This document shows, piece by piece, positions 2,861 through 19,243 of a stretch of 41,081 nucleotides of DNA. Each line of letters opens with the position of its first letter. Within the stretch, counting starts at the first letter, position 1. Both the position numbers and the translations under genes were made by a program. This stretch comes from an uncultured beta proteobacterium (lineage in GTDB: Bacteria > Pseudomonadota > Gammaproteobacteria > Burkholderiales > Burkholderiaceae_C), in NCBI GenBank assembly GCA_903914175.1, contig CAIWNX010000178.1, forward strand, positions 1 to 41,081, given 5' to 3'. The notes under the pieces were generated by a model. That model saw only the letters and a list, made by a program, of their open reading frames with translations, was not told where the DNA came from and did not search any database.

Positions 2861-4312
2861 CTAAACGCCGGTGGCCTGTGCCATCAAGGCGCGCCAGCGC
2901 TGGTAACGCGCTTGCAGCGCTGAATCGCTCTGCGCCGGGAAGATTTCCTCATGCGCGCCCTGGTTCCAGTCTGCGGGCCGACCGCAGGCCAGATAAGCGA
3001 TGCCGCGTGCGCTGGCTTCCGGGTCGTCGCGCCGGTGCACCGGCAGACCGCTGCTGCAGGCCAGGCGCTGGCACAGGCCGTCGAGCAGGGAGACGCCACC
3101 GCTGATGCGGATGCGCCGCGCGGCAGGCACATACTGGTTCATGTGATCGATGTTGGCCTGCAGCAAAAAAGCGATGCTCTCGACCACCGCCACGGCCTTG
3201 AGCCAGGGCTCGGCCTCGCCGACAAAGCGCGACTCAAACTCAGGCTGCCAGAAGGGTCCGCCCAGGCCGGCGATGCCGTTAAGAAACAGCGGCGGCGCCT
3301 CGGGCCGCTTCAGCCATAGCGGCAGCTCATGGGTGAGTTGGTCCATGCCAAACTCCTTGCGAACCCACTCCAGCGCGGTACCGGCACCGTTCACATTGCC
3401 TTCGACCATGTAGACCCGGCTCGCACCATCGTCCCGGATGATACCGGTCAACTGGCGTGGCACGTGGCCAGGAAAGTGCGTGAGTGCGCGTTGCACGAAA
3501 GCGCTGGTGCCAATGTTGATATAGGCCGAGTCCGCTTCGGGCCAGCCAAAGGCGAACACGGCAGCCGACTGGTCGCCGTTGACCGCTGTGAGGGGGATGG
3601 CAGCACCCGGCAGATCGAGCGTGCCCCAGGCGTAACAGGTCGGCACGCTACGGGGCAGAAAACCGGCTGGCAGACCGAACAGCGCAAGCAACTCAGGGTC
3701 CCAGTCATGCGTCTGCAAATTCCATAACTGGGTGCGCGCGGCGCACTGCGGGTCGGCCAGAAAAGGCTGCTCTGTGCACAAGCGAAACGCCACAAAGCTC
3801 GCCATCGGACCCCAGCACAGGGTCTGGTTTTCCAGCGCGGCACGCACGGCGGGCAAATGGTCCAGCGCCCAGCGCAATTTGCTGGCGCCGTAGTGTGGCG
3901 AGAGAAAGAGCCCGGTCTTGCGGTGCACGCTATCGGCGTGTGGCTGCAACTGATCAATCCAGGCGTGGGCGCGTCGATCCTGCCAGCTAAATATCGGCGA
4001 CAGCGGCGCACCCGTCAGCCGGTGCCAGCAGATCACGCTGGAGCGCTGGCTGGAAAGCCCTGCCCCCACCACGTCCTGCCGTCGCGCGCCGAGCCCCTGC
4101 AAGGCCTGCGTCGCGGCCACGCGAACCGAGTTCACGATCTCCTCGCCGTCCTGCTCGGCCCAGTCGGCCTGCGGGTAGGTGATGGCGATGTTTGCCACGG
4201 CGCTGGAGAGCGTGCGCCCGTTTCGATCCAACACCAAGGCACGGCTCGCGTGCGTTCCCTGGTCAATGGCCAGGACCAGCGGTTTGCTCACAGCACTGAT
4301 CTGTTCGTCCAT
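2861..4312 (-). CDS. FGGY-family carbohydrate or polyol kinase (glycerol-kinase-like)
   Basis: A protein of 483 residues from the ATG at 4312; the ORF track begins five codons earlier at a TTG. It shows the two-domain FGGY kinase fold: the N-terminal phosphate-binding loop AIDQGTHASRALVLD, the substrate-region segment FSWQDRRAHAWIDQL, and AVNGDQSAAVFAFG, which carries the expected catalytic Asp. The C-terminal adenosine motif is ISGGVSLLDGLCQRLA. Length and order match glycerol kinase (about 500 residues), but the glycerol-kinase signature DQGTTSSR is changed to DQGTHASR and overall similarity looks moderate, so the substrate could be glycerol or another polyol or sugar. It follows a Bug-type receptor and a GntR gene on the same strand, 71 bp downstream of the receptor, suggesting one catabolic unit. 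The family is sure; the substrate is not. Confidence 0.85.
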   Translation of the reverse strand: MDEQISAVSKPLVLAIDQGTHASRALVLDRNGRTLSSAVANIAITYPQADWAEQDGEEIVNSVRVAATQALQGLGARRQDVVGAGLSSQRSSVICWHRLTGAPLSPIFSWQDRRAHAWIDQLQPHADSVHRKTGLFLSPHYGASKLRWALDHLPAVRAALENQTLCWGPMASFVAFRLCTEQPFLADPQCAARTQLWNLQTHDWDPELLALFGLPAGFLPRSVPTCYAWGTLDLPGAAIPLTAVNGDQSAAVFAFGWPEADSAYINIGTSAFVQRALTHFPGHVPRQLTGIIRDDGASRVYMVEGNVNGAGTALEWVRKEFGMDQLTHELPLWLKRPEAPPLFLNGIAGLGGPFWQPEFESRFVGEAEPWLKAVAVVESIAFLLQANIDHMNQYVPAARRIRISGGVSLLDGLCQRLACSSGLPVHRRDDPEASARGIAYLACGRPADWNQGAHEEIFPAQSDSALQARYQRWRALMAQATGV

Positions 4313-4383
4313 GGTCTTGCGTTCCAATCACCACCCATGCCGCACTGTACAACCAACAGCGCCCGATCAAGCCCGCTTCGCGT

Positions 4384-7073: not shown

Positions 7074-7889
7074 CTACAGCCCCAGGGATTTTTCCGGCAA
7101 ACCCAGCGCGAGCCCGAGAAGCTGGGTGTAGAGCAGCGTGCGGATGGACGCCTCCGCGGTATCTGCCGGCAGCGCCTGCACGCCGTCAAAGCGCAGATGG
7201 CAGTGCGGGCAGGCGGTGCACATCACTTCGGCGCCACTGGCCAGCGCGTCCGTGATCTTGGCGCGCGTCATTTGCTCTGACAACGGGGTGTTCGCCTCGT
7301 GCAGCGGATCGCCGCAGCAGTCCAGTTTGCGCGGCCAGTCGATCGGTGTGGCACCGGTCAGTCGGATCAGGTCTTCAAAGATCGTCGGCGCCAGCGGGTT
7401 GTCAAAACGTGCCACGTTGCTCGGGCGCAGTGTGTGGCAGCCGTATTGGGCGGCGACGCGCATACCGGTGCGCGGCTCACGCACAGCCTGTGCCAGCGCA
7501 TCAACGCCGATCACACGCGCCAGCAGCGGCAACACGTGCTCGACCTCGGTTGTGCCCGACCAGGTCAAGCCCTCGGCGGCCAGTGCCTCAGTCATGCGTG
7601 CGCGCAGTGCCGCGTCCTCGTCCAGGAAAGCAATCGCATGGCGCAGCGTGCCAAAGCAGCAGGCGCAAGGCGTCAGCACATTGAGGCCGGAGCGCTCGGC
7701 CAGCGCCAGATTGCGGGCAGCGGCCAGCACAAAAGCGTCGCGGCTGACATCGCGTGCCGGATAGCCGCAGCAGGTGAAATCCAGTTCGACCAGCGTGACG
7801 CCCAGGTGTTGCAACACAGCGCGGGTTGAAGCGGCGTAGGCCGGCAGTTGGGATGGGATCTTGCAGCCCAGGAAAAGCGCGTATTTCAT
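7074..7889 (-). CDS. HdrB-like CCG-domain protein, probable catalytic/electron-transfer subunit of the Glp complex
   Basis: The true start is the ATG at 7889, giving 271 residues; the ORF track adds 42 residues. Two cysteine-rich CCG domains are visible. The first is GCKIPSQ, then TCCGYPARD, then TPCACCFG. The second is YGCHTLRPS, then LDCCGDPLHE, then CTACPHCH. This is the pattern of heterodisulfide reductase subunit B and of the C-terminal half of GlpC, where such cysteines bind a special 4Fe-4S cluster. The start overlaps the stop of the upstream iron-sulfur membrane gene by 4 bp (ATGA), so the two should be made together. With glpA and glpB upstream it most likely replaces the CCG half of GlpC, passing electrons from glycerol-3-phosphate oxidation towards quinone. 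That role is inference; the fold is clear. Confidence 0.85.
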   Translation of the reverse strand: MKYALFLGCKIPSQLPAYAASTRAVLQHLGVTLVELDFTCCGYPARDVSRDAFVLAAARNLALAERSGLNVLTPCACCFGTLRHAIAFLDEDAALRARMTEALAAEGLTWSGTTEVEHVLPLLARVIGVDALAQAVREPRTGMRVAAQYGCHTLRPSNVARFDNPLAPTIFEDLIRLTGATPIDWPRKLDCCGDPLHEANTPLSEQMTRAKITDALASGAEVMCTACPHCHLRFDGVQALPADTAEASIRTLLYTQLLGLALGLPEKSLGL

Positions 7890-9607
7890 GAAGCTTCCTT
7901 CTGTCCGCGCACGCTGCCCAGTCGCTGCACCGACAGCGCGCGCAACTCGACCATGATGTCGGCCACGCGGATGCCTTGCGGGCAATGCTCCTGGCACTGG
8001 TAGCAGGTGGCGCAACTCCAGACCATGCGTGAGCCCAGGGTGAGGTCACGCAGACCCAGGCGCAGCAGGTTCATCACCTTCTGCGGCGTCAGATCGACAG
8101 CGCTCCCCGGCTCTGTGCTGTGGGCCACCACCGGACAGACGTTAGTGCAGGTCTGGCACTGCACGCAGTGTGAGAAGCTGGCGCGGTTGGCTGAGAGTGG
8201 CGCATCCAGCGCGTCCGGGTCCGAAAAGCTGTGCGGCCAGACATCGCTGTGCAAGGCATCGGCCCACGCCAAGACCGGGCGTGCTTGCACCCACTGCGCT
8301 GGCGCTGGCAGGCCCGCAGCAGCCAAGTCGGCGCGAGCGGCTGGCCACAGGTCTTGAAGGTCCAACCCCACCGGGCAGACGTTGCTGCAGCGTGCGCAAT
8401 CGGTGCAACCGAAAGCGCCTTCGGCGATGCGCAATGCCTGCTCGCCTGCGTCAGCGGATGGGTCAGCAAACGGCCAGCGACCACGGGCCAGCGCGCCGGT
8501 GGCGCTGAGCTTGTGCGAGGGCAACCAATAGCGGTTGTCCAGATAGCGCGCCGGCGGCGCCACGGCGCAGTGCGCATCGCAAATGCCGCAACCCACGCAC
8601 GCGTCCAATGCCAGTGCGCGCCGCGTTGCACGCGCGGCGCTGGTTAAAGCCTGAGGCGACTTCGCGCCGTTGAGCAACAGATTGATCGGTGCCGCCACAG
8701 CATGGAAAAAGCGCGTGAACGGCAACGTTGCCAGGCCGATGAAACAGGCGAATACGTGCAGGTAGAGCAGCCAGCTTGGCGCCTGCGCGCCGTCGAGCAG
8801 ACGCGCCAATGGCGCCAGCAAGCGCGACAGCGGGTAAGAGACAAAAGCCGATGCGGCCCGGGCGTGGCAGGTTTCGCAATCGGCCTCGTGCAGGGCGCGG
8901 CCCAGCTTCATCACGTCCGGTGCGATCGGCTCCTTCAGATCGTCAAAGGCCACGCCGAACTCGCTAGCCCAGAAAGCGCGCAGCGGCTTGAGCTCGACTG
9001 GATCAGCGCTGCCGTTGAACTCTTTGGCCATGCGATAGAAAACCTGTGGCGAGGCGATCTTGTTCGCTTCGAGCAGAAAACCTGTCAGCAGTACGAAGCC
9101 CAGCAGCACGACGAAGGCCGCCGCCAGAGGTGGGCGTGGCGGTGCAAAACGCGTGCGCCGGCGCCACCGTCCGAAGAGAAAGAGTGCGAGCCCGAGCACC
9201 GTCATGGCACCGAACAGATTGCGCAGAAAGAGGTAGGGGTTGCGCGTGGACTCGTAGCCCGGGAACAGCTTCAAGGTCACGACAGCCGCCAGCGCGTGCA
9301 TCAGCAGCAAGCCCATGAAGCCAACAAACATCAGCAGGTGCGCCAGCCAGCGCGATTTGTCAATGCGGTACAGGCGGCGCTGCAGCAGCACGTCGAGAAA
9401 CAAGGCGCCGCAGACCTGGAACACGCGCCGACTGAAAATTGCCGCTGCCGCGCCGCGTAGCGAAGCCTGCAAACGCTGCGCCAGCGTCACCGTCTGCACG
9501 TCAGGCCCGATACGCAAGCGCAACCACGCAGACATGCGCCAGAGCAGGCCCAGGGCGCACAGCAACAGCGATGCAGAAAGGGCGGTGTGAAAGAGCAGGC
9601 GTGACAT
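7886..9607 (-). CDS. Membrane-bound HdrC-like protein: NarI-type helices, c-haem motif and four cysteine clusters
   Basis: The start is the ATG at 9607 (573 residues), 4 nt after the glpB stop; the track's 55 extra residues are unlikely. The N-terminal half has about five membrane helices (around residues 4-25, 88-112, 130-147, 162-179 and 279-300) with histidines such as H90, H104 and H284 that could hold b-type haem, as in NarI/DsrM-like subunits. Between helices, residues 244-248 read CETCH, a c-type haem attachment motif. The soluble C-terminal half carries four 4Fe-4S cysteine sets: CVGCGICDAHC (337), CTDCARCSNVC (401), CVQCQTCTNVC (481) and CATCYQCQEHC (532). It likely anchors the dehydrogenase to the membrane and passes electrons to quinone. 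E. coli GlpC has neither the membrane helices nor the haem motif. Confidence 0.8.
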   Translation of the reverse strand: MSRLLFHTALSASLLLCALGLLWRMSAWLRLRIGPDVQTVTLAQRLQASLRGAAAAIFSRRVFQVCGALFLDVLLQRRLYRIDKSRWLAHLLMFVGFMGLLLMHALAAVVTLKLFPGYESTRNPYLFLRNLFGAMTVLGLALFLFGRWRRRTRFAPPRPPLAAAFVVLLGFVLLTGFLLEANKIASPQVFYRMAKEFNGSADPVELKPLRAFWASEFGVAFDDLKEPIAPDVMKLGRALHEADCETCHARAASAFVSYPLSRLLAPLARLLDGAQAPSWLLYLHVFACFIGLATLPFTRFFHAVAAPINLLLNGAKSPQALTSAARATRRALALDACVGCGICDAHCAVAPPARYLDNRYWLPSHKLSATGALARGRWPFADPSADAGEQALRIAEGAFGCTDCARCSNVCPVGLDLQDLWPAARADLAAAGLPAPAQWVQARPVLAWADALHSDVWPHSFSDPDALDAPLSANRASFSHCVQCQTCTNVCPVVAHSTEPGSAVDLTPQKVMNLLRLGLRDLTLGSRMVWSCATCYQCQEHCPQGIRVADIMVELRALSVQRLGSVRGQKEAS

Positions 9608-9611
9608 GACG

Positions 9612-10904
9612 CTAGCCAGCCTTGTGCAGTTGCTGCGTGATCTGTTCCACCGCCGCCCAGGCCGTCGCAATCGCCAGGCCCGAGCCGCATTTGGCGCGCA
9701 TCCAGTCCTGCTCGGCCAGGATGGAGCCGATGGCAAACAGGTTGGCCCAGGCTGGTTTCCCACTCGCGTCAAGCGGCCGCCAGGCTTCGTCGGTCAACAA
9801 GCCGGCGCGGTTGATGGCGTGGCCGGTCGGGTCCAGAAAGTCGCGTTGATGCCAGTCCTCGCGCGCAAGGGGTTGCTGCACCGGCAAGCCGAGGATGCTC
9901 TCGCGCACCGATTGGCGGTCGGCCGTCAGTCCGCGTCCGCTAAAGCGCCCGGTGGCCAGCACGACTGCGCCGGCACGGATGCGCTCACCGCCGGGTGCGC
10001 CAACGAGATCCAGCGTGGCGGTGTCGCCATCAAAGTTCAGCGAGCGCACGCTGGAGAGTTGGCGCCGTGTCACACCGCGCGCCGACATGACGGCTTCCAG
10101 CGCGCCCAGCAGGCGCAGACCGGGCACCGATGTCGGCATGGTGGGAATCTCGAACACCGGCACGCCCAAGCCGGCCTCGAAGGCTGCGTGCACCTCGCTT
10201 GATCGACTCAGACCCAGCAGGGCCGCAAGCCCGACGACACGCGCATCACCCAGCAGCGGCTTGATGAGCGCAATCGTGCGCTCGCGTGTTTCGCGGTTTT
10301 CCAGGGCCCGCGCAAGGTGAACGGCGTAGACCTCGGGCACGGCTTCGAAGCCCGGAAACTCGATGCGCTGGTGCCGCAGCGTTGGCCATTCCTGGGCCAG
10401 CGTCTCAACAATCTGGCGTGCACTGAACTCGCGCAGGCCACGGAAGTCCACCAACAGGCACGGCAGTCGCTGCGCCAGCGCAGCAACGCCCGCCACCATG
10501 GTCAGCGGCACGCCGTAACTGGTCTTGACGGTACCAATCGATGTGATCACGTTGCTGTTGTGCTCGCCCATCTGCGCGTAAGGCATCCCGGCAGAAGTCA
10601 GGGCCGCGACAAAGCGCTGGAACGCTGTGCGAATCGCGAGTGGATCGACCTGCGCCAGCGGATGCGCGGGCTGCTCACGCGCGAGTGCTGCCAGTGCCTC
10701 AAAAGGCGACTGCCACAGCCGATGCTGCGCCACCGGCTGCACCGCCAGCAGGTCCAGCAAACCACTGGCAAACAGAATGCCGCCACCGCTGCCGATCTGA
10801 ATGCACGACAAGCCCCGCTCGGCGGCAAACAGCGCCGCCGCCATACCGGCCATGCCGGCGCCGATCACGGCAACGTCGTAGCGCTTGGCTGCTGCGTCGC
10901 TCAC
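9612..10904 (-). CDS. glpB: Anaerobic glycerol-3-phosphate dehydrogenase subunit B
   Basis: An FAD/NAD(P)-binding flavoprotein. The dinucleotide fold is at the N-terminus (DVAVIGAGMAGMAAALFAAERG), and GlpB-type segments follow: GGILFASGLLDLL, MGEHNSNVITSIGTVKTSY and VVLATGRFSGRGL. I choose the GTG at 10904, giving 430 residues, because it overlaps the glpA stop as GTGA and has GAGG eight bases upstream. The ORF track starts 23 codons earlier inside glpA. In E. coli, GlpB forms a catalytic dimer with GlpA, and GlpC anchors it to the membrane. Here it is the second gene of the operon, followed 4 nt later by the membrane iron-sulfur gene. The identity rests on fold, the GlpA neighbour and operon order. 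Confidence 0.85.
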   Translation of the reverse strand: MSDAAAKRYDVAVIGAGMAGMAAALFAAERGLSCIQIGSGGGILFASGLLDLLAVQPVAQHRLWQSPFEALAALAREQPAHPLAQVDPLAIRTAFQRFVAALTSAGMPYAQMGEHNSNVITSIGTVKTSYGVPLTMVAGVAALAQRLPCLLVDFRGLREFSARQIVETLAQEWPTLRHQRIEFPGFEAVPEVYAVHLARALENRETRERTIALIKPLLGDARVVGLAALLGLSRSSEVHAAFEAGLGVPVFEIPTMPTSVPGLRLLGALEAVMSARGVTRRQLSSVRSLNFDGDTATLDLVGAPGGERIRAGAVVLATGRFSGRGLTADRQSVRESILGLPVQQPLAREDWHQRDFLDPTGHAINRAGLLTDEAWRPLDASGKPAWANLFAIGSILAEQDWMRAKCGSGLAIATAWAAVEQITQQLHKAG

Positions 10905-12508
10905 GGCTTGACCTCGCATGCGACAGCGGCAAGCAGCGTCGCCTGGCGCAACTCTTCGCCGAACAGTCCGCAATGCAGCGCTTCAGCCAACTCGGCCTGC
11001 GCCAGTTGTTCGCCCCACAAAATTGGCTGCTGGCCACGCCAGCGCTCGCTGAAGAAATCAACGATCTCGGAGAGTCCCCGTTGCGCCTGAAAATCTCCCG
11101 TTTGATACAGGTGTGCCACGGTGCGCAGACCGCAGAAAGCGCCCTGGCAGGCACCCTTGCCGACGCGGCTGCGCAAGCCGATGTCGGTCAGTGTCGGGGT
11201 ATCGCCGGCGGCGCGCAGCGCCGCGTAAATCGCATCGACAGCACTGCCCTGCACCATCTCGCATTCACACAGCAACGTGTCATCCACTTGGTGCGAACGC
11301 ACCCACTCACGCGCCGAGTGACCCGGCGCGGTCCACGCACTCTCGGCAGCGTGCGGCAACAGCGTCGTCGCGCTAAGGCAAGGCCGCGTTACACCCAGGC
11401 GCTGGCAGACAAGATCGGCGGCGCGTTCGGCCATCAAGCGGCAAGTGGTGAGCTTGCCGCCAGTGAGCGTGGCGAAGTTGTCCAGACCGTGCTCCTCGTG
11501 GTCAAACAGGGCAAAGCCGCGCGAGACGGCGCGGCTGTCGGCACCCGCCGAGCCGAGCAGCGGACGCACGCCGGCGTAGGCGCGGATAAAGCGCGCGCTC
11601 GCCAGTGCCGGCAGCATCGGCGCCGATTCCGCAATGATCAGATCGGCTTCGGCTGTTGTAGGGCGAATGTCGTCCAGTGAATCCACCCGCAATGAGGTGG
11701 TACCAATGATGGAAACCGTGCCACCCGGCATCAGGATGTCGCCGTTGCCGGGCCGGCGCAGACGATTCACGACGCGGCTGGCCAGCCTGGTGTGCGTGAC
11801 CAGCAACGTGCCCTTGGAATACGTCATCGCGATCGACGCACCGGCCAGCAGCGCCACCTCGCGCGCCCAGGCGCCGGCGGCATTGACCACTTGCGTGGCC
11901 TCAATCCGCACCTCATCCCCACCCGCCAGCGACTGAACGCGCACCGCGCAAATGCGTCGCCCGTCGCGCTCGAAGCCAACGACGCGCGTGCGCCGCATGA
12001 GCCGCGCACCCAGACTGCAGGCTTGCGCCATGCTTTCCAGCGAGAGCCGAAACGGATCGATGGCCGCATCGGGCACCTCGAACACCGCAATCGTGTTCTC
12101 GGAGAGCGCCGGCTCCTGTGCGCGTGCGACGGCCACATCAACGGCGCGCGCCGTGATACCGGAGCGCGCGCAGTGCGACGGGAAGTCGGCGATGTAGCGT
12201 TCATCGTCGCCCTGCACGGCGACGAAATAGCCACCCGTGTCCTGGATCGTTTGCGCGGCCACGCGCTTGAGAATGTCGCCCTCGGCGCGGCACTCCATCG
12301 CGGCCCCGGGATCGCCAGCAACATAACGCGCACCGCTGTGCAGCAGGCCATGGTTGCGCCCGGATGCGCCGGCGTTGATGTCGTCCTTCTCGACCAGAAC
12401 GCAGTCAATGCCGCGCAGGGCCAGGTCACGCGCCAGCGCCGTGCCAGTGACGCCACCGCCGATGATCAAGACCTGGGTCTGGATGACAGATGGGAAATAT
12501 AACTCCAT
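10901..12508 (-). CDS. glpA: Anaerobic glycerol-3-phosphate dehydrogenase subunit A
   Basis: A 535-residue flavoprotein that oxidises sn-glycerol-3-phosphate to dihydroxyacetone phosphate. Residues 13-33 hold the FAD loop VLIIGGGVTGTALARDLALR, followed by the GlpA/GlpD signature GASGRNHGLLHSGARYVAGD. VVNAAGAWARE and LTGGKLTTCRLMAE complete the DAO fold. The C-terminus carries a BFD-like domain with C414, C416, C454 and C459 (LLCECEM and GACQGAFCG), as in E. coli GlpA. It matches E. coli GlpA closely along its length as I recall that sequence. It is the first gene of a four-gene operon with glpB and two Hdr-like genes. An AGGGA lies about 10 nt before the ATG. No promoter stands out in the 179-bp gap upstream. 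The ugp uptake genes later in the window would supply its substrate. Confidence 0.93.
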   Translation of the reverse strand: MELYFPSVIQTQVLIIGGGVTGTALARDLALRGIDCVLVEKDDINAGASGRNHGLLHSGARYVAGDPGAAMECRAEGDILKRVAAQTIQDTGGYFVAVQGDDERYIADFPSHCARSGITARAVDVAVARAQEPALSENTIAVFEVPDAAIDPFRLSLESMAQACSLGARLMRRTRVVGFERDGRRICAVRVQSLAGGDEVRIEATQVVNAAGAWAREVALLAGASIAMTYSKGTLLVTHTRLASRVVNRLRRPGNGDILMPGGTVSIIGTTSLRVDSLDDIRPTTAEADLIIAESAPMLPALASARFIRAYAGVRPLLGSAGADSRAVSRGFALFDHEEHGLDNFATLTGGKLTTCRLMAERAADLVCQRLGVTRPCLSATTLLPHAAESAWTAPGHSAREWVRSHQVDDTLLCECEMVQGSAVDAIYAALRAAGDTPTLTDIGLRSRVGKGACQGAFCGLRTVAHLYQTGDFQAQRGLSEIVDFFSERWRGQQPILWGEQLAQAELAEALHCGLFGEELRQATLLAAVACEVKP

Positions 12509-12687: not shown

Positions 12688-13149
12688 CTACTTGAGCATG
12701 CGGGAAGTGTCGTTGTTATTCAACCAAGTTCGCATCCCGTCGAAACCAGCTTGGTAAACGCCTTCGCCTACCAGCGTGGCAAATTCGGTTTCCCGACCTT
12801 TGGGGGTTGCAAATATTGATGACCAGGTCCAGAAGCAGCGTCCGGTGTCGGTTACGGTTTTGAGTTGCAAAGTGGAGACGTAGCGGTGCAAAGGCAAGCT
12901 GCCGTCCAGGATGCAGTAGCGCAGCAGGTGTTCCTGATCATTCAGGCTAAGCAATTGCTCACGCAGCCGATTGCCGTCGCGCAAAGCAAATTTGCGCACA
13001 CAACCGACTTGACTGCCGCTGTCAGCGCCTTCGATTTCACTGCTTTCAATGGCCGGGTGCCAGTTCACATGGCTGTTGAAATCGCGCAGCACAGACCAGA
13101 GTCGGTAGATCGGCACATCGATTTGCGTTGACCGGATCACCCTTAGCAT
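12688..13149 (-). CDS. SRPBCC-family protein (polyketide cyclase/MxaD-like), copy 1
   Basis: A 153-residue protein of the SRPBCC (START-like) superfamily. It opens with the strand and motif VIRSTQIDVPIYRLWSVLRD, followed by FNSHVNWHPAIESSEIE and ending in GVYQAGFDGMRTW. This matches the Polyketide_cyc2/MxaD-like layout, a helix-grip fold with a hydrophobic ligand cavity and no obvious catalytic residues. It is the last gene of the nine-gene ABC-transporter/Tm-1 operon and lies 16 nt downstream of a clear paralogue (13166-13597). The two share FN..., WHP.I and a QTGF/QAGF-D ending, so they arose by tandem duplication. It may bind the imported ligand or a derivative. The family is clear; the function is unknown. 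Confidence 0.8.
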   Translation of the reverse strand: MLRVIRSTQIDVPIYRLWSVLRDFNSHVNWHPAIESSEIEGADSGSQVGCVRKFALRDGNRLREQLLSLNDQEHLLRYCILDGSLPLHRYVSTLQLKTVTDTGRCFWTWSSIFATPKGRETEFATLVGEGVYQAGFDGMRTWLNNNDTSRMLK

Positions 13150-13165
13150 AGGGATTGGACTCTTT

Positions 13166-13597
13166 TCAGACGCCGCGTTTCAGCGCGTCGAAGCCGGTTT
13201 GGAATACGCCCTGTCCTATCGTCTGCGATAGTTCAACTTCGCGATCTGGTGCGCAGTCAAATTCGGCGCTCCACTCGGCAAAGCTGCGGTCTCCGTCGGT
13301 GACTGGCGTGAGTTTCAACGTGGCCACGTAGTTGCTCACCCCCATCGGGCTTTCGACAATTTCATAAACACAGGTGTAGTCGTAATCCGACAGGCCCAGC
13401 AGACGCTCACGGATCAACCCGCCGTCCGTTGTATGAAAGTAGCGAATGCAGCCAACCTGGTCGCTGGCCATGCTGTTCTCGATGCGCGAGTCTTTGATGA
13501 CGGGATGCCATTTCGGTAGTGCGTTGAAATCACGGATGCGGGCCCAAAGGGTGTCCGCCGGGACATCGATCACGCTTGAAACGTAGACGCGAATCAT
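13166..13597 (-). CDS. SRPBCC-family protein (polyketide cyclase/MxaD-like), copy 2
   Basis: A 143-residue SRPBCC protein and paralogue of the next gene. It starts MIRVYVSSVIDVPADTLWAR, then has DFNALPKWHPVIKDSRIE, a central VGCIRYFHTTDGG strand and the end GVFQTGFDALKRGV. The fold is a helix-grip ligand-binding domain, probably cytoplasmic as there is no signal peptide. The gene starts 10 nt after the flotillin stop and ends 16 nt before copy 1, so all three are co-transcribed. Two adjacent copies suggest either a heterodimer or two related ligands. Nothing in the sequence identifies the ligand. Confidence 0.8.
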   Translation of the reverse strand: MIRVYVSSVIDVPADTLWARIRDFNALPKWHPVIKDSRIENSMASDQVGCIRYFHTTDGGLIRERLLGLSDYDYTCVYEIVESPMGVSNYVATLKLTPVTDGDRSFAEWSAEFDCAPDREVELSQTIGQGVFQTGFDALKRGV

Positions 13598-13607
13598 CTT
13601 GAATCCC

Positions 13608-15302
13608 CTAGTCTTTTGAAGTGTCAGGATTCGGCGCTTCGGAACCCGTGAGCGCAGCGGATGCGATTTGCGTCACATCGCCGGCATTGATTCCGATTTC
13701 CTTGAGCAACTGGTCTACCAATGGCGCTTGGGCGCGATAGCGCAATGCGGAGTTCACCAGGCTGTCAGAAAAACCCGCCTGCCCGGCCTCAGCCCCTCCC
13801 GTTGTGCGACCACCCCCGCCCAAACCATCGACGTGCAGGATCTTGATGCCCTCGATGTGCTCCATTGGTTTGACTGACTCGCGAATGATGGCCTCCACCT
13901 TGTCGAGCAGGCGCAGGCGCAACTTCGTGGTTCGGGCGTCCGGCGAGAGCATGTTATGCGCTTCATTCATGAGATGCTGTGCCTCAGCCTCGATTGCGGC
14001 ACGCACTTTGTAGGCCTGAACCTTGATCGTGTCGGCATCGGCCTCGGCCTCGGCTTGTGCCCGGATCGCGATACCTCGGTCCGCGCTGGCCGCCTTTTCA
14101 GCGCTGGCCGCCATCGTCAGCCGTATGCTGTCGCTCTCTGCGGCCTGCGACGCTGCAATCAAGTCAATCGCTTTCTTGCGCTCGGCCATTTCAATTTCGC
14201 GTGCGGTAAGGACTTTCTCTTCCGCCGTCACGGCCAGCGCGCGCGCCACGTCGGCCGCCGCCTGGGCATCCGATTGGGTCTTGCTCTGCTGTGCGATGGC
14301 GATCAACCGCAATTGCTCGGCCAGTTCGGTGGCTTGCCGGCGGGATATTTCAGCGCCCTGCAGTTCCTGCTCCTTTGTGATCCTGAGCTGCTCGACGGAT
14401 TGCTCGGCACGCATACGCGCTTGCTCCACCGCCAGCTTCGCAGCGATGGTTGCCGTTTCACCTTCCTGGTCCTTCTGGGCTCTCTCACGCGTCAGCTCGG
14501 CCCGTTGATGGGCGCGGGCAATTTCGACTTCGCGCTGCTGACCGATGCGCGCATATTCCGATTCACGGTCAATATCGAGTTGCAGTTTCTCCGCCTCCAG
14601 ATTCTTGTTGCGGATGGCAATCAAGGTGTCCTGTTCGATGTCATTGCGCAGCTTCTTGCGATGCTCAATCTGCTCGGTCAGGCGGGTCAAACCCTCTGCA
14701 TCAAAGGCGTTGCTCGGGTTGAAAAATTCCATTCCGGTCTGGTCGAGTTGGGTCAGCGATGCGGCCTCCAGTTCCAAGCCGTTCTTGGTCAAATCATCGG
14801 CCACGGTCGCGCGCACGTTTTTGACGAAGACACCCCGTTTTTCATGCAGTTCTTCCATCGTCATGGTCGCCGCCACCGTTCGCAAGGCGTCGACAAACTT
14901 GCCTTCCAGCAGTTCCTTGAGCTTTTCTGGCTCCAGGGTTCGCATGCCCAGCGTTTGCGCTGCGTCGGCGACAGCTTCTGGCGTTGCCTGCACGCGAACA
15001 TAAAACTCGGCGATGACATCCACACGCAAGCGATCACGCGTGATCAAGGCCTTGTCGCGTCCCCGGCTGACCTCAAGACGCAAGGTGTTCATGTTGACCG
15101 GGATCACATCGTGAACAATCGGTAAAACAAAGGCACCACCGCCGAGCACCACCTTTTGGCCTCCCAGCCCCGTGCGAACAAAGGCACGCTCCTTGGAACT
15201 TCGAAGATAAAACCAGTGCAATAACCACACTGCGATGGCAACCACCACCGCGATGGCGATGATGCTGATAAGAAATGTTCCGAATTGAGCGCCGGTCATC
15301 AT
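13608..15302 (-). CDS. Flotillin/YqiK-like SPFH-domain membrane scaffold protein
   Basis: A 564-residue flotillin-type protein. One membrane helix lies at about residues 8-30 (FLISIIAIAVVVAIAVWLLHW), then an SPFH/band-7 domain spans about 35-210 (VRTGLGGQKVVLGGGAFVLP; NMNTLRLEVSRGRDKALITRD). A long charged coiled coil rich in Ala, Glu and Arg follows at about 220-440, then a Gly-rich flotillin tail (HVDGLGGGGRTTGG). Such proteins form oligomeric membrane scaffolds. CAGGAG precedes two adjacent ATG codons; the second (15299) has better spacing, so the real start may be one codon in. It lies 31 nt after the PEP-hydrolase-like gene in the same operon. A flotillin inside an ABC-transporter operon is unusual and hints that the complex is organised in a membrane domain. 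Confidence 0.88.
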   Translation of the reverse strand: MMTGAQFGTFLISIIAIAVVVAIAVWLLHWFYLRSSKERAFVRTGLGGQKVVLGGGAFVLPIVHDVIPVNMNTLRLEVSRGRDKALITRDRLRVDVIAEFYVRVQATPEAVADAAQTLGMRTLEPEKLKELLEGKFVDALRTVAATMTMEELHEKRGVFVKNVRATVADDLTKNGLELEAASLTQLDQTGMEFFNPSNAFDAEGLTRLTEQIEHRKKLRNDIEQDTLIAIRNKNLEAEKLQLDIDRESEYARIGQQREVEIARAHQRAELTRERAQKDQEGETATIAAKLAVEQARMRAEQSVEQLRITKEQELQGAEISRRQATELAEQLRLIAIAQQSKTQSDAQAAADVARALAVTAEEKVLTAREIEMAERKKAIDLIAASQAAESDSIRLTMAASAEKAASADRGIAIRAQAEAEADADTIKVQAYKVRAAIEAEAQHLMNEAHNMLSPDARTTKLRLRLLDKVEAIIRESVKPMEHIEGIKILHVDGLGGGGRTTGGAEAGQAGFSDSLVNSALRYRAQAPLVDQLLKEIGINAGDVTQIASAALTGSEAPNPDTSKD

Positions 15303-15333: not shown

Positions 15334-16164
15334 TTAGCGTTTGATTCTCTTGAATTGTCGCGTCGTCTCCGTCAGCGCCACCTCGGTTGGGAGTCGCTCC
15401 ATACTCGACGCACCGTAGAAGCCGTGGCAGTCAGGGCAATGCTTCAATATGAACTCAGCATCGCTGGGCGTGGCAATCGGCCCGCCGTGACACAGAACAA
15501 TAACGTCCGGATTCACTTTGCGTGCCGCGCTCGCCCAGCGGTTGATCGGGGCAACGCAACCATCGAGCTTGAGCGCCGACTGTGCACCAATGTCCCCGCC
15601 TGTGGTCAGACCCATGTGGCAGACAACAATGTCAGCGCCAGCCCGGGCCATCGCAGTGGCATCCGCTTCGCAAAAGACATAAGGGGTTGTCAACAAATCG
15701 AGCGCCCTGGCCTGGGCAATCAGTTCCACTTCGAGCGCATAGCCCATTCCGGTCTCTTCCAGGTTTGCGCGGAATTTGCCGTCGATCAAACCGACCGTCG
15801 GGAAGTTCTGGATGCCTGAGAAACCCAGATCGATCAGTTTGCGCAGGAAGGGCTCAGCAATCATGAACGGATCGGTACCGCAGACCCCGGCAAGCACCGG
15901 TGTGCGCTTGACCACGGGCAACACCTCGAACGCCATCTCGCAGACGATTTCGTTGGCGTTGCCATAAGGCATCAGACCGGCCAGCGAGCCACGTCCTGCC
16001 ATTCGGTAACGCCCGGAGTTGTAGATCACGATCAAATCAATTCCGCCAGCCTCTTCGCAGCGGGCCGACAGTCCGGTGCCGGCGCCGCCGCCGACGATGG
16101 GTTGTCCGTTTGCGATCATGGAGGCAAACTTGGAAAGAATCTCTGGTCGGGCAATGCGTGCCAT
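15334..16164 (-). CDS. Phosphoenolpyruvate-hydrolase-family TIM-barrel protein (Tm-1 C-terminal-domain homologue)
   Basis: A 276-residue TIM-barrel protein of the PEP_hydrolase family (PF09370). Typical segments are [62 protein letters not shown] and [15 protein letters not shown], ending with [18 protein letters not shown]. The family resembles PEP mutase/isocitrate-lyase barrels, and its chemistry is poorly defined. In plants such as tomato, a barrel of this type is the C-terminal half of Tm-1, whose N-terminal half is a UPF0261 domain. Here the upstream gene, 30 nt away, ends in exactly that UPF0261 domain, so the two proteins very probably work as one unit. An AAGG-type site lies just before the ATG. 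The reaction is unknown. Confidence 0.88.
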
Positions 16165-16194: not shown

Positions 16195-18459
16195 TTAGAA
16201 GGTGGAACGAAGTGTCGAGTTGCTGGCGATGGCCGCGGCGGCGCTCACTTCCTTGAACGCTGCCAGCAGTGCTTCTGCAAAGGCCGGATCGTTGATGTTT
16301 TCAGGCCGCCTGATCAATTTTCGATTTATTGTTGGCCGGAAGTTTTTCTCAATTGCAGCAAAAAGTGCGAGGTTCGCATCCGGCATCCAGAACAGTTTTC
16401 CGGGCGCGTCGAGCGCTGATACGCCGCCTTCGGGTAACAGGAAGCGAACCGGTCCCTCCATGGCATTGAGTTTTGCGGCGATGAATTCACCCATCGCCGT
16501 GTTTTCCTCCGGCGTGGTTCGCATCAATGTAACGTTGGCGTTGTGCTTGTAGAGCAGTCGCGACTTGAACTTTTCCGGAACCGTGTCGATCGCGCCGAAA
16601 TTCACCATGTCAAGCGCGCCACACGAACCGACATACGGTATGCGGGTGCGTGCAATGGCATCCATGCGCTCAGGACCGGCAGAGAACACGCCGCCCACCA
16701 GTTCGTCGGCAATTTCGGTGGTCGTGACGTCAATAATGCCGGCCAGTAGGCCAGAGTCTGCAAGCTTTTCCATCGACTGACCGCCGACGCCTGTGGCATG
16801 GAATACGAGGCTGTCGTAGGCGTCCCCGAGGAGCCGCGTCACGCTCTGGACACAGGTCGTTGTCACACCGAACATGGACAGGCCGATGGCCGGGCGCGAT
16901 TGCTCCTCCTGCTTGGGCATATTCATGATCATTCCGGCCAAGGCATGCGCCGCATTGGCAAGAACCTTGGCGCTGATGCGGTTGATGCCTTGGATGTCCG
17001 TCACCGAGTACATCATGCAGATGTCGCTGGGGCCGACATAGGGCCGGGTATCGCCCGACGCCACGGTGGTCAGCATGACTTTCGGGACGCCAATGGGCAA
17101 TGCCCGCATCGCGGGTGTCGCCAACGCACTGGCACCTGAGCCACCTGCCGATATCAAGCCACCGACGTCGCGGCGCGTCAGTATGAATCGTTCAAATGCA
17201 ATTGCCATGGCCGAGACCGCTGAACCGCGGTCATTGGTAAACACAGCACGCTCGCCGTCGGGGTGATGGCGAGCGACTTCGCGCGGATGAACCTGAGCAC
17301 TGGAAATGGCCGTGCTGGTTGACAGGTCAACGGTCACGGTTCTAAGGCCAAGCCTGTCAAGGCATTGACGCAGGAAGAGCATCTCGCGGCCCTTGGTATC
17401 GAAAGTACCGGCGATATAGGCGGCACAGTTTGTCGCACTGGCCACGCTAAAGGCCTGTGGATGCGAAGATGCGCTCGGCCGCTTTTCTACCAAGGGAATT
17501 TCGCGATGAACCGGTTCGATTACGCGATCAACCGCCTCGGCATTCACTACTGCGGCGTTCCAGCGGGTAATTGCGCGCACCGTTCGTACACGATCAGCCT
17601 GCGGGACAAGCGCATTGCTTCCCCCGCGCTTGCCACCGAGGGCCTCTGACGCGCGGCCTGTGGCCGACACCGCAGGCATCCCCGGGTCTGCTTCTTCTTC
17701 GCCCGCATTGACACCTAACAAACGCTGCTGCAATCCACGGTCTTGTGCCAATGAAGCGGCCGGCATGATGCTGGCGATGCGGCCGTTGACCATGACCGCC
17801 ACGGTGTCGGCAACATCCAGCGCCACACCAAGATTTTGTTCAATCAGCAAGACACTGATTCCGCCTTCGGCGACCAGCGCCTTCAACATCGCCGCAACCT
17901 GGTTGACGATGACAGGCGCGAGCCCTTCGGTCGGCTCATCCATCACCAGCAGCTTCGGGTTGAACAGCAGCGCGCGCCCAATCGCCAGCATTTGTTGCTC
18001 GCCACCGGATAGCTGTGCGCCGCCATGGTTGCGACGCTCGGCTAGGCGCGGGAATAACTCGTAAATGCGCGCGACCGACCAGTCACCCCGGCGTGCGGAT
18101 TTTTCGCTGAGCCGCAGGTGTTCATCGACCGAGAGCGAAGGCCATACGCGCCGGCCTTGCGGTACGTAACCAACGCCTCGTTCGGTTATCAAATGGGAGG
18201 GTAGCCCGAGAATGGACTGTCCATCCAGCAAGACATCCCCGCCAGCGGGAATGAGGCCCGTAATGGCATTGCACAGGCTGGTCTTGCCCATGCCGTTGCG
18301 TCCAACCACGGCCAGCACGCCGCTTTGCAAAGTGAGGGACACACCCTGCAAGGCGTGGGCACGACCATAAAAAACATCAAGGGAACGGACTTCAAGAACG
18401 GGATGCGCGGCACCCTTGCCGGAGCTCAGTGCTTTGAGCCATGAAGGACTAGTGACCAT
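16195..18459 (-). CDS. Fusion: LivF-type ABC ATPase with Tm-1-like (UPF0261) domain
   Basis: A 754-residue two-module protein from the ATG at 18459, chosen because GAGGG stands upstream; the track uses a GTG five codons earlier. Residues ~20-250 are a LivF-type ABC ATPase with Walker A GRNGMGKT (53-60), signature [15 protein letters not shown] (150-164), Walker B LLVMDEP and switch LLIEQN. A variable linker spans ~255-345. Residues ~346-740 are a Tm-1-like/UPF0261 domain ([55 protein letters not shown]), a family with a nucleotide-binding Rossmann fold. The gene overlaps livG by 11 bp. Coupling a transporter ATPase covalently to a metabolic-type domain is the most striking feature of this operon. 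The open frame runs through both modules, so it is one polypeptide. Confidence 0.9.
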
Positions 18460-19243
18460 GATGGTGTCCCTCACCCATGTAAATGGCCTGCACTTGTGGA
18501 TCGTTCTGGATTTCGTCGGGGGTTCCGTGCTTCAGGACACGACCGTTATGCATCACCGTGACACGTTCAACAACGCGCAATGCGATATCGAGGTCGTGTT
18601 CGATGATGACGTAGCCGATATGGCGCGGCAATGCGTTCAACAGGTTCACCAGTTCGCGTCGTTCGGCTGGCGACAAGCCGGCGGCTGGTTCGTCGAACAA
18701 AATCAAGCGTGGCGAACCCGCCATTGCCATCCCAATTTCGAGTTGCCGCTGCTGACCATGCGCCAACGCCGACACCTTGGTGTTGGCGAGATGGGTCAGT
18801 CGCGCATGCTCCAACAACGCTTGCGCCGCCGGCCACGAATTGTCATTTCGATCCGTTCGAACAAAGCGAAACCGCCCCTGACTCACGCCCCGAACGGCGA
18901 GGTAAAGATTGTCGAGAACACTCAAGTCTCGAAACAGCAGGGAAGACTGATAGGTTCGACGCAAGCCACGGCGAATGCGCTCATGGACCGCAAGCTCGGT
19001 GACGTCTTCGCCGAACAGCAACACGCGGCCGCTGGTCGGAGGAAAGTCTCCGGTGATGGCGTTGAAAAGGGTGGTCTTGCCCGCCCCGTTGCTGCCGAGC
19101 ACCGCATAGCGCTGCCCGGCCTCAACATTAAAACTAACCTGGTCAATCGCCTTCAAGGCGCCGAAATGACGCGAAACGTTCTGCAACTCAAGCGCATGGC
19201 CAGAGAGAAACCCACTGGTGATGACGGCGTCGGGCAGAGTCAT
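18449..19243 (-). CDS. LivG-type ABC transporter ATP-binding protein
   Basis: A 264-residue ATPase of the branched-chain amino acid (HAAT) ABC class. Walker A is [11 protein letters not shown], Walker B is [15 protein letters not shown] and the H-loop is [13 protein letters not shown]. The signature reads [11 protein letters not shown], the LivG-type variant of LSGGQ. The C-terminus is HHHGH, a short His-rich end of no known meaning. It follows the receptor gene by 48 bp and overlaps the fused LivF gene, so the two ATPases are made together and should form the heterodimer under the LivH-LivM permeases. Similar systems import amino acids, amides, urea or aromatic acids, so the name livG describes only the class. 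Confidence 0.92.

Follow-up and report, generated by a model that had tools for sequence, protein, structure and literature searches.

A four-gene variant of anaerobic glycerol-3-phosphate dehydrogenase in which a membrane protein with a putative haem c and an HdrB-like protein probably stand in for GlpC

In E. coli, GlpC is a single protein with two ferredoxin motifs and CCG domains, and to our knowledge the route from GlpC to quinone is poorly understood, E. coli included. The operon described here raises the question of how electrons leave a GlpAB dehydrogenase that is encoded beside a different set of iron-sulfur proteins. It was found in a freshwater betaproteobacterium, as four genes on the minus strand at positions 7074-12508 of the window, by which we mean the whole stretch of 41,081 nucleotides that was analysed. 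The original prediction had listed these genes as glpA, glpB, a five-helix protein with a CETCH motif and an HdrB-like protein with two CCG domains, and this make-up was borne out. MemC is a name coined in this analysis for the membrane protein.

10901-12508, minus strand: glpA, FAD subunit of anaerobic glycerol-3-phosphate (G3P) dehydrogenase, 535 aa (TIGR03377)
9612-10904, minus strand: glpB, second flavoprotein subunit, 430 aa, GTG start (TIGR03378, NF003725)
7886-9607, minus strand: MemC, 573 aa, predicted membrane b/c-type cytochrome with two 4Fe-4S diclusters (Pfam, alignment, model and Foldseek)
7074-7889, minus strand: HdrB-like protein, 271 aa, two CCG domains (PF02754, twice)

The glpA stop and the glpB start overlap in GTGA, memC lies 4 nt from glpB, and the memC/hdrB junction is an ATGA overlap. 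Both flavoprotein subunits are equivalogs of those in the classical GlpABC known from E. coli and elsewhere: GlpA reached 553.7 bits against TIGR03377 (cut-off, 552.8), and GlpB reached 214.8 bits against TIGR03378 (cut-off, 174.15) and 524.7 bits against NF003725 (cut-off, 345). The C-terminal CxC...Cx4C cysteines of GlpA (C414, C416, C454 and C459), which are invariant across 25 GlpA sequences, form a predicted BFD-type [2Fe-2S] site. In contrast, the classical GlpC is a single chain with a CIKCxxC dicluster at its start, whereas the operon in the window uses the pair of MemC and the HdrB-like protein. No single GlpC-like protein combining a dicluster with two CCG domains was found in the window, and the scores against GlpC models were far below the cut-offs, with 57.5 bits for MemC against NF008369 (cut-off, 278) and 35 bits against TIGR03379 (cut-off, 279.9), and 20.8 bits for the HdrB-like protein against NF008369. 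Neither protein reached any curated NCBIfam cut-off; since MemC thus lacks a curated family name, it is probably annotated in many genomes merely as an Fe-S protein.

A single scan across a collection of species-level genomes yielded 80 related loci; the alignment sample comprised 81 MemC sequences, and the Pfam and model sets comprised 74. Exactly five hydrophobic helices were found in MemC, with cores at residues 4-22, 92-110, 126-144, 161-179 and 280-298, followed by sixteen cluster cysteines arranged as four CxxCxxCxxxC sets. These cysteines were invariant over the 81 homologues, save C535 at 99%. The parts of the protein are as follows.

8669-9607, minus strand: NarI/HdrE/EtfD-like membrane domain, MemC residues 1-313 (invariant His, PF02665)
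8357-8605, minus strand: first (extra) 4Fe-4S dicluster, residues 335-417 (Fer4_7 at 337-414; eight invariant Cys)
7970-8176, minus strand: second 4Fe-4S dicluster, HdrC-like, residues 478-546 (TIGR03290; HdrC chains in the PDB, E 2e-11)

Four histidines, H90 and H104 on TM2 and H284 and H302 on TM5, were likewise invariant in the alignment of 81 sequences. MemC shows the five TM helices with two histidines each on TM2 and TM5 that mark the NarI/HdrE/DsrM type, and the placement of H90/H104 and H284/H302 is what we take to be the pattern of NarI's two bis-histidine haems b. MemC therefore has two predicted bis-His haem b sites on these helices. PF02665 matched 73 of the 74 members, with a best E-value of 2.1e-11. 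The original prediction was right about the cysteine sets, the helices and the CETCH motif of MemC and missed these four NarI-type histidines. As a separate point, selenocysteine at a TGA in one relative (G674, L095) was considered and rejected, the frame being open for 564 aa.

The membrane-embedded pair is of the kind predicted originally as a replacement for GlpC, a two-protein module related to HdrDE and DsrMK. HdrDE, DsrMK, TmcBC and HmcEF likewise join a NarI-like cytochrome b to HdrC/HdrB-type Fe-S and CCG parts; MemC differs from them in that the b part is fused before two diclusters while HdrB is separate. The c haems of such Hdr-like modules reside on separate subunits, namely TmcA, HmcA and DsrJ, and we know of no CxxCH in their b subunits. 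NarI shares the TM2/TM5 histidine pairs with MemC but lacks the haem c loop and the fused diclusters. An AlphaFold model of MemC, cofactor-free and built from 74 sequences, had a mean pLDDT of 85.5 and a pTM of 0.82. In a Foldseek comparison with solved structures, the sole significant match was mycobacterial EtfD (E 3.7e-6), with HdrC chains next and NarI weakly after them; the modelled fold of MemC is thus closest to EtfD, then to HdrC and NarI. EtfD (9ojn; PMC13083937) is an electron wire from the cytoplasm to menaquinone, with haem b, two 4Fe-4S clusters and two CCG clusters. The likeness extends to the five TM helices, the two 4Fe-4S clusters and the two CCG domains, but EtfD is one polypeptide with one haem b, a linear 3Fe-4S cluster and an ETF partner, and no haem c is reported in it. 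The single-chain architecture of EtfD/DgcB was not found in the window, where the CCG domains are on a separate gene, the partner is GlpAB, and an extra dicluster and a CxxCH motif are present.

The feature that sets MemC apart lies between its last two helices.

8777-9052, minus strand: TM4-TM5 loop, MemC residues 186-277, net negative, predicted periplasmic (charge, alignment)
8864-8878, minus strand: CETCH, putative haem c attachment motif, residues 244-248 (CxxCH in 81/81)

The motif is preceded by a G..LH helix (residues 230-243). C244, C247 and H248 were invariant in all 81 homologues, while the residues between the cysteines varied freely (CETCH, CATCH, CADCH, CASCH, CAVCH, CMDCH and others). 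Lys and Arg together number 33.5 per 100 residues in the TM3-TM4 loop, and the mean net charge of the CxxCH loop over the 81 sequences was -7.6, a positive-inside pattern suggesting that the CxxCH loop is periplasmic and the Fe-S part cytoplasmic. Cytochrome c assembly proteins (PF01578) were above the cut-off in 13 of the 13 hosts examined. The demand made at the outset that the CETCH loop face the periplasm to receive haem thus agrees with the charge pattern, with the NarI-like topology and with the assembly genes in the hosts checked. Since the CxxCH motif on the predicted periplasmic side is accompanied by a maturation system, as expected of a c-type cytochrome, MemC is predicted to bind a haem c covalently at its outer face. 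M193 (99%) and W213 of the same loop were invariant or nearly so; apart from the CxxCH motif, M193 alone among the conserved residues of this outer loop could ligate a haem, and our guess is that it may serve as the sixth ligand to haem c. Pfam did not recognise the loop as a class-I cytochrome c domain; Cytochrome_CBB3 matched only 8 of 74 members, with a best E-value of 0.045.

The second protein of the pair matched HdrB in the PDB with an E-value of 5e-49. As in HdrB, it contains two C...CC...CxxC sets (C9, C40, C41, C75 and C78; C151, C191, C192, C227 and C230), both kept in 72 homologues aligned to 5odc_B. Its score against the HdrB equivalog model TIGR03288 was 192.8, below the cut-off of 345.15. 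With all ten cluster cysteines of the catalytic HdrB retained, the protein might carry out disulfide or DsrC-like thiol chemistry, so that G3P oxidation would be linked both to the membrane and to a disulfide in the cytoplasm; relatives of MemC-HdrB in sulfate-reducing bacteria adjoin HdrA, and the electron flow from GlpAB to HdrF proposed by Strittmatter 2009 (PMC2702500) can be counted for it. We consider this improbable, because the Glp operons are without HdrA, DsrC or a known disulfide partner, and because an eleventh cysteine, C77, invariant in the HdrB-like protein, aligns with the position of His583 in EtfD. According to the EtfD authors (PMC13083937), His583 completes a cluster and makes it non-catalytic. 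C77 at the same place would be positioned to complete the cluster likewise, which suits an electron relay rather than disulfide chemistry.

Taken together, these data make it reasonably probable that the operon encodes a membrane-bound G3P dehydrogenase with an electron conduit across the membrane in place of GlpC. GlpA and GlpB would oxidize G3P to DHAP in the cytoplasm, and the electrons would then enter the HdrB-like protein at its non-cubane 4Fe-4S clusters and move on through both MemC diclusters, the HdrC-like one first. From there, they would pass to haem b(P) (H90/H302), to haem b(D) (H104/H284) and finally to the haem c that the periplasmic loop between TM4 and TM5 would bind covalently (C244, C247, H248). 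This order of carriers is taken by homology from EtfD and NarI, and the four proteins would presumably form a complex. What is observed behind the proposal is the gene set, the conservation of the cofactor ligands, the topology pattern and co-inheritance; the four-gene variant names every likely cofactor ligand of a GlpC substitute.

The membrane-embedded, haem-bearing part of the path foreseen originally is supported; an exit to periplasmic cytochrome c is about as likely as the endpoint at quinone. We put the transfer from haem c to a periplasmic c-type carrier a shade above even, and quinone reduction beside haem b(D), which would be the chief alternative or a parallel outlet, a shade below. 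The operon itself has no gene for a periplasmic cytochrome. The membrane potential favours electrons moving outwards from the cytoplasm, so such flow would spend it. Somewhat more tentatively, the enzyme may be a G3P:periplasmic cytochrome c oxidoreductase that bypasses the quinone pool, its b/c conduit belonging to a modular family with HdrA and GlpAB as interchangeable partners. If the exit were indeed a periplasmic cytochrome, the breakdown of glycerol and phospholipid headgroups would be tied directly to cytochrome-based or extracellular respiration, a link that would concern bacteria of anoxic lakes and sulfate reducers.

A G3P:quinone oxidoreductase, with a site beside haem b(D) that would use ubiquinone in the betaproteobacterial hosts, is an equally tentative reading; haem c would then be a side station with a tuning or structural role, like haem c(n) of cytochrome b6f. 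Both EtfD and NarI, which resemble MemC in fold, act on quinones, and Y118, T121, P124 and R129, conserved in the TM2-TM3 periplasmic loop beside haem b(D), would suit a quinone site. E. coli GlpABC, moreover, passes electrons to menaquinone (PMC11962113). This classical acceptor seems to be missing in the betaproteobacterial hosts, where MenD was below the cut-off and PF02621 (futalosine route) was absent, so that their acceptor is probably ubiquinone, which could serve instead, or a c-type cytochrome. In two Spirochaetota hosts, G667 and G669 (L024 and L027), neither MenD above the cut-off nor PF02621 was found either, the completeness of these genomes not being established. Also against a mere side role for haem c is that the CxxCH motif was never lost throughout the Glp clade, that is, among the glpAB-linked MemC.

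The exit through haem c received further support from a MemC paralogue, L102, that is without the residues equivalent to about 194-281 and so without CxxCH. L102 nests within the CxxCH-bearing Hdr clade of the MemC tree, so that the absence of the loop is a loss. Its apparent operon (G684:C14, 7084-12622) also contains HmcA (a 16-haem cytochrome), HmcB and HmcC, all three above curated cut-offs, alongside genes for HdrB and an HdrA-like protein. Supply of an external multihaem cytochrome thus goes with loss of the built-in haem c, which suggests that the haem c of MemC is a port to periplasmic cytochromes, as judged from this single lineage. L182, a truncated second case, starts where its contig does and is no more than compatible with the port reading.

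The search for the same gene order proposed with the original prediction was productive. The order glpA-glpB-memC-hdrB recurred in some 20 independently assembled genomes of four phyla, from freshwater Betaproteobacteria (a Rhodoferax included), Myxococcota, Spirochaetota and Desulfobacterota. The set appears to be a variant of a known enzyme that has gone largely unrecognised. In the window's family, MemC was found in 4 of 301 genomes and GlpB in the same 4; among 369 genomes drawn across the class, MemC was confined to that of the window itself. This patchy occurrence fits horizontal acquisition. A plasmid protein search for relatives gave one weak dicluster match only, and no relative was found on viral contigs. 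Divergence among the four proteins was tightly correlated over 23 loci (r 0.977-0.989), a measure for which common ancestry alone also yields high values. GlpB occurred in 32 of 198 Spirochaetota genomes; the 26 high-scoring GlpB inspected were followed by a classical GlpC-type dicluster protein, one with an ambiguous downstream frame, and MemC came after the four inspected GlpB with low scores. In Desulfobacterota, classical GlpC followed most GlpB inspected.

The other loci of the scan, mainly from Desulfobacterota, had MemC-HdrB but lacked glpAB; behind the pair there was usually an HdrA-like protein, and sometimes MvhD-like or NuoE/NuoF-like proteins as well. Five orphan glpAB pairs of the MemC-associated type (L176-L180), adjoining glycerol kinase or ABC transporter genes, were also found in Desulfobacterota, without adjacent GlpC or MemC. 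Independent occurrence of the Hdr-like genes had been named beforehand as an observation that would count against the idea, and taken literally it is what the HdrA-linked sister clade displays. These cases could mean that the four genes are neighbours by chance, GlpAB using another acceptor and MemC-HdrB having another role. We rejected this as very improbable on gene order, clade and distribution: the identical order with overlapping genes recurs in four phyla, and the two proteins share their genome distribution in the window's family. Moreover, the MemC tree, a quick tree with midpoint root and no bootstrap, separated a Glp clade from an Hdr clade by one partner change (SH-aLRT 98). As the Glp-linked MemC form their own clade, an older shared module is indicated, and accidental neighbourhood is unlikely. 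Judged by phylogeny and gene context, MemC-HdrB is a predicted redox module that was re-coupled to GlpAB and is broader than its use with GlpAB. These results suggest a transmembrane wire with a fixed outer haem that can be attached to different cytoplasmic flavoenzymes.

The original prediction of a GlpC replacement was supported, yet it had overlooked a published precedent. In Desulfobacterium autotrophicum HRM2, HdrF combines membrane helices with HdrC and HdrB domains and is clustered with glpAB; HdrF1/F1' are two genes beside glpAB, for which electron transfer from GlpAB was proposed in the context of sulfate reduction and dicarboxylate transport (PMC2702500). Neither a c haem, nor b-haem histidines, nor a wider distribution were reported for them. 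Compared by description, HdrF1/F1' are likely of the same kind as MemC-HdrB, because Desulfocicer vacuolatum (L025) of the same family has the MemC form. A second precedent is the HotSeep-1 complex (AMM42179-42180), in which an HdrA-linked CCG protein also binds haem c; an exchange of electrons between it and cytochromes of the periplasm was suggested (Murali 2023; PMC10553843). The complex differs in having no GlpAB and, set together by description, is possibly related to the HdrA-linked sister clade of MemC. The open-access literature searched contained these two precedents only, neither with a c haem in a glpAB-linked protein. The operon is thus a real and conserved new variant of both the anaerobic G3P dehydrogenases and the membrane Hdr-like modules, with partial precedent.

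In relatives, the operon adjoins the ugp genes for G3P uptake (UgpB, UgpA and UgpC above the cut-off) and an FGGY kinase. The window itself contains only the kinase among such substrate neighbours.

2861-4327, minus strand: FGGY-family kinase, glycerol-kinase-like (248 bits; GlpK cut-off, 590)

This protein may be a divergent glycerol kinase. The host also encodes full-length GlpD-like homologues below the GlpD cut-off (G000:C173:3278-4687 and G000:C186:3536-4768), and the four-gene enzyme is therefore probably a second, anoxic route of G3P oxidation. Elsewhere in the window, the stretch immediately upstream of glpA (12688-15302) carries, on the glpA strand, a flotillin gene and a tandem pair of Polyketide_cyc2 (START-like) genes. 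A PEP_hydrolase-like gene (15334-16164) adjoins a gene for a 759-aa fusion of an ABC-transporter ATPase with UPF0261 (Tm-1-like) domains (16195-18474).
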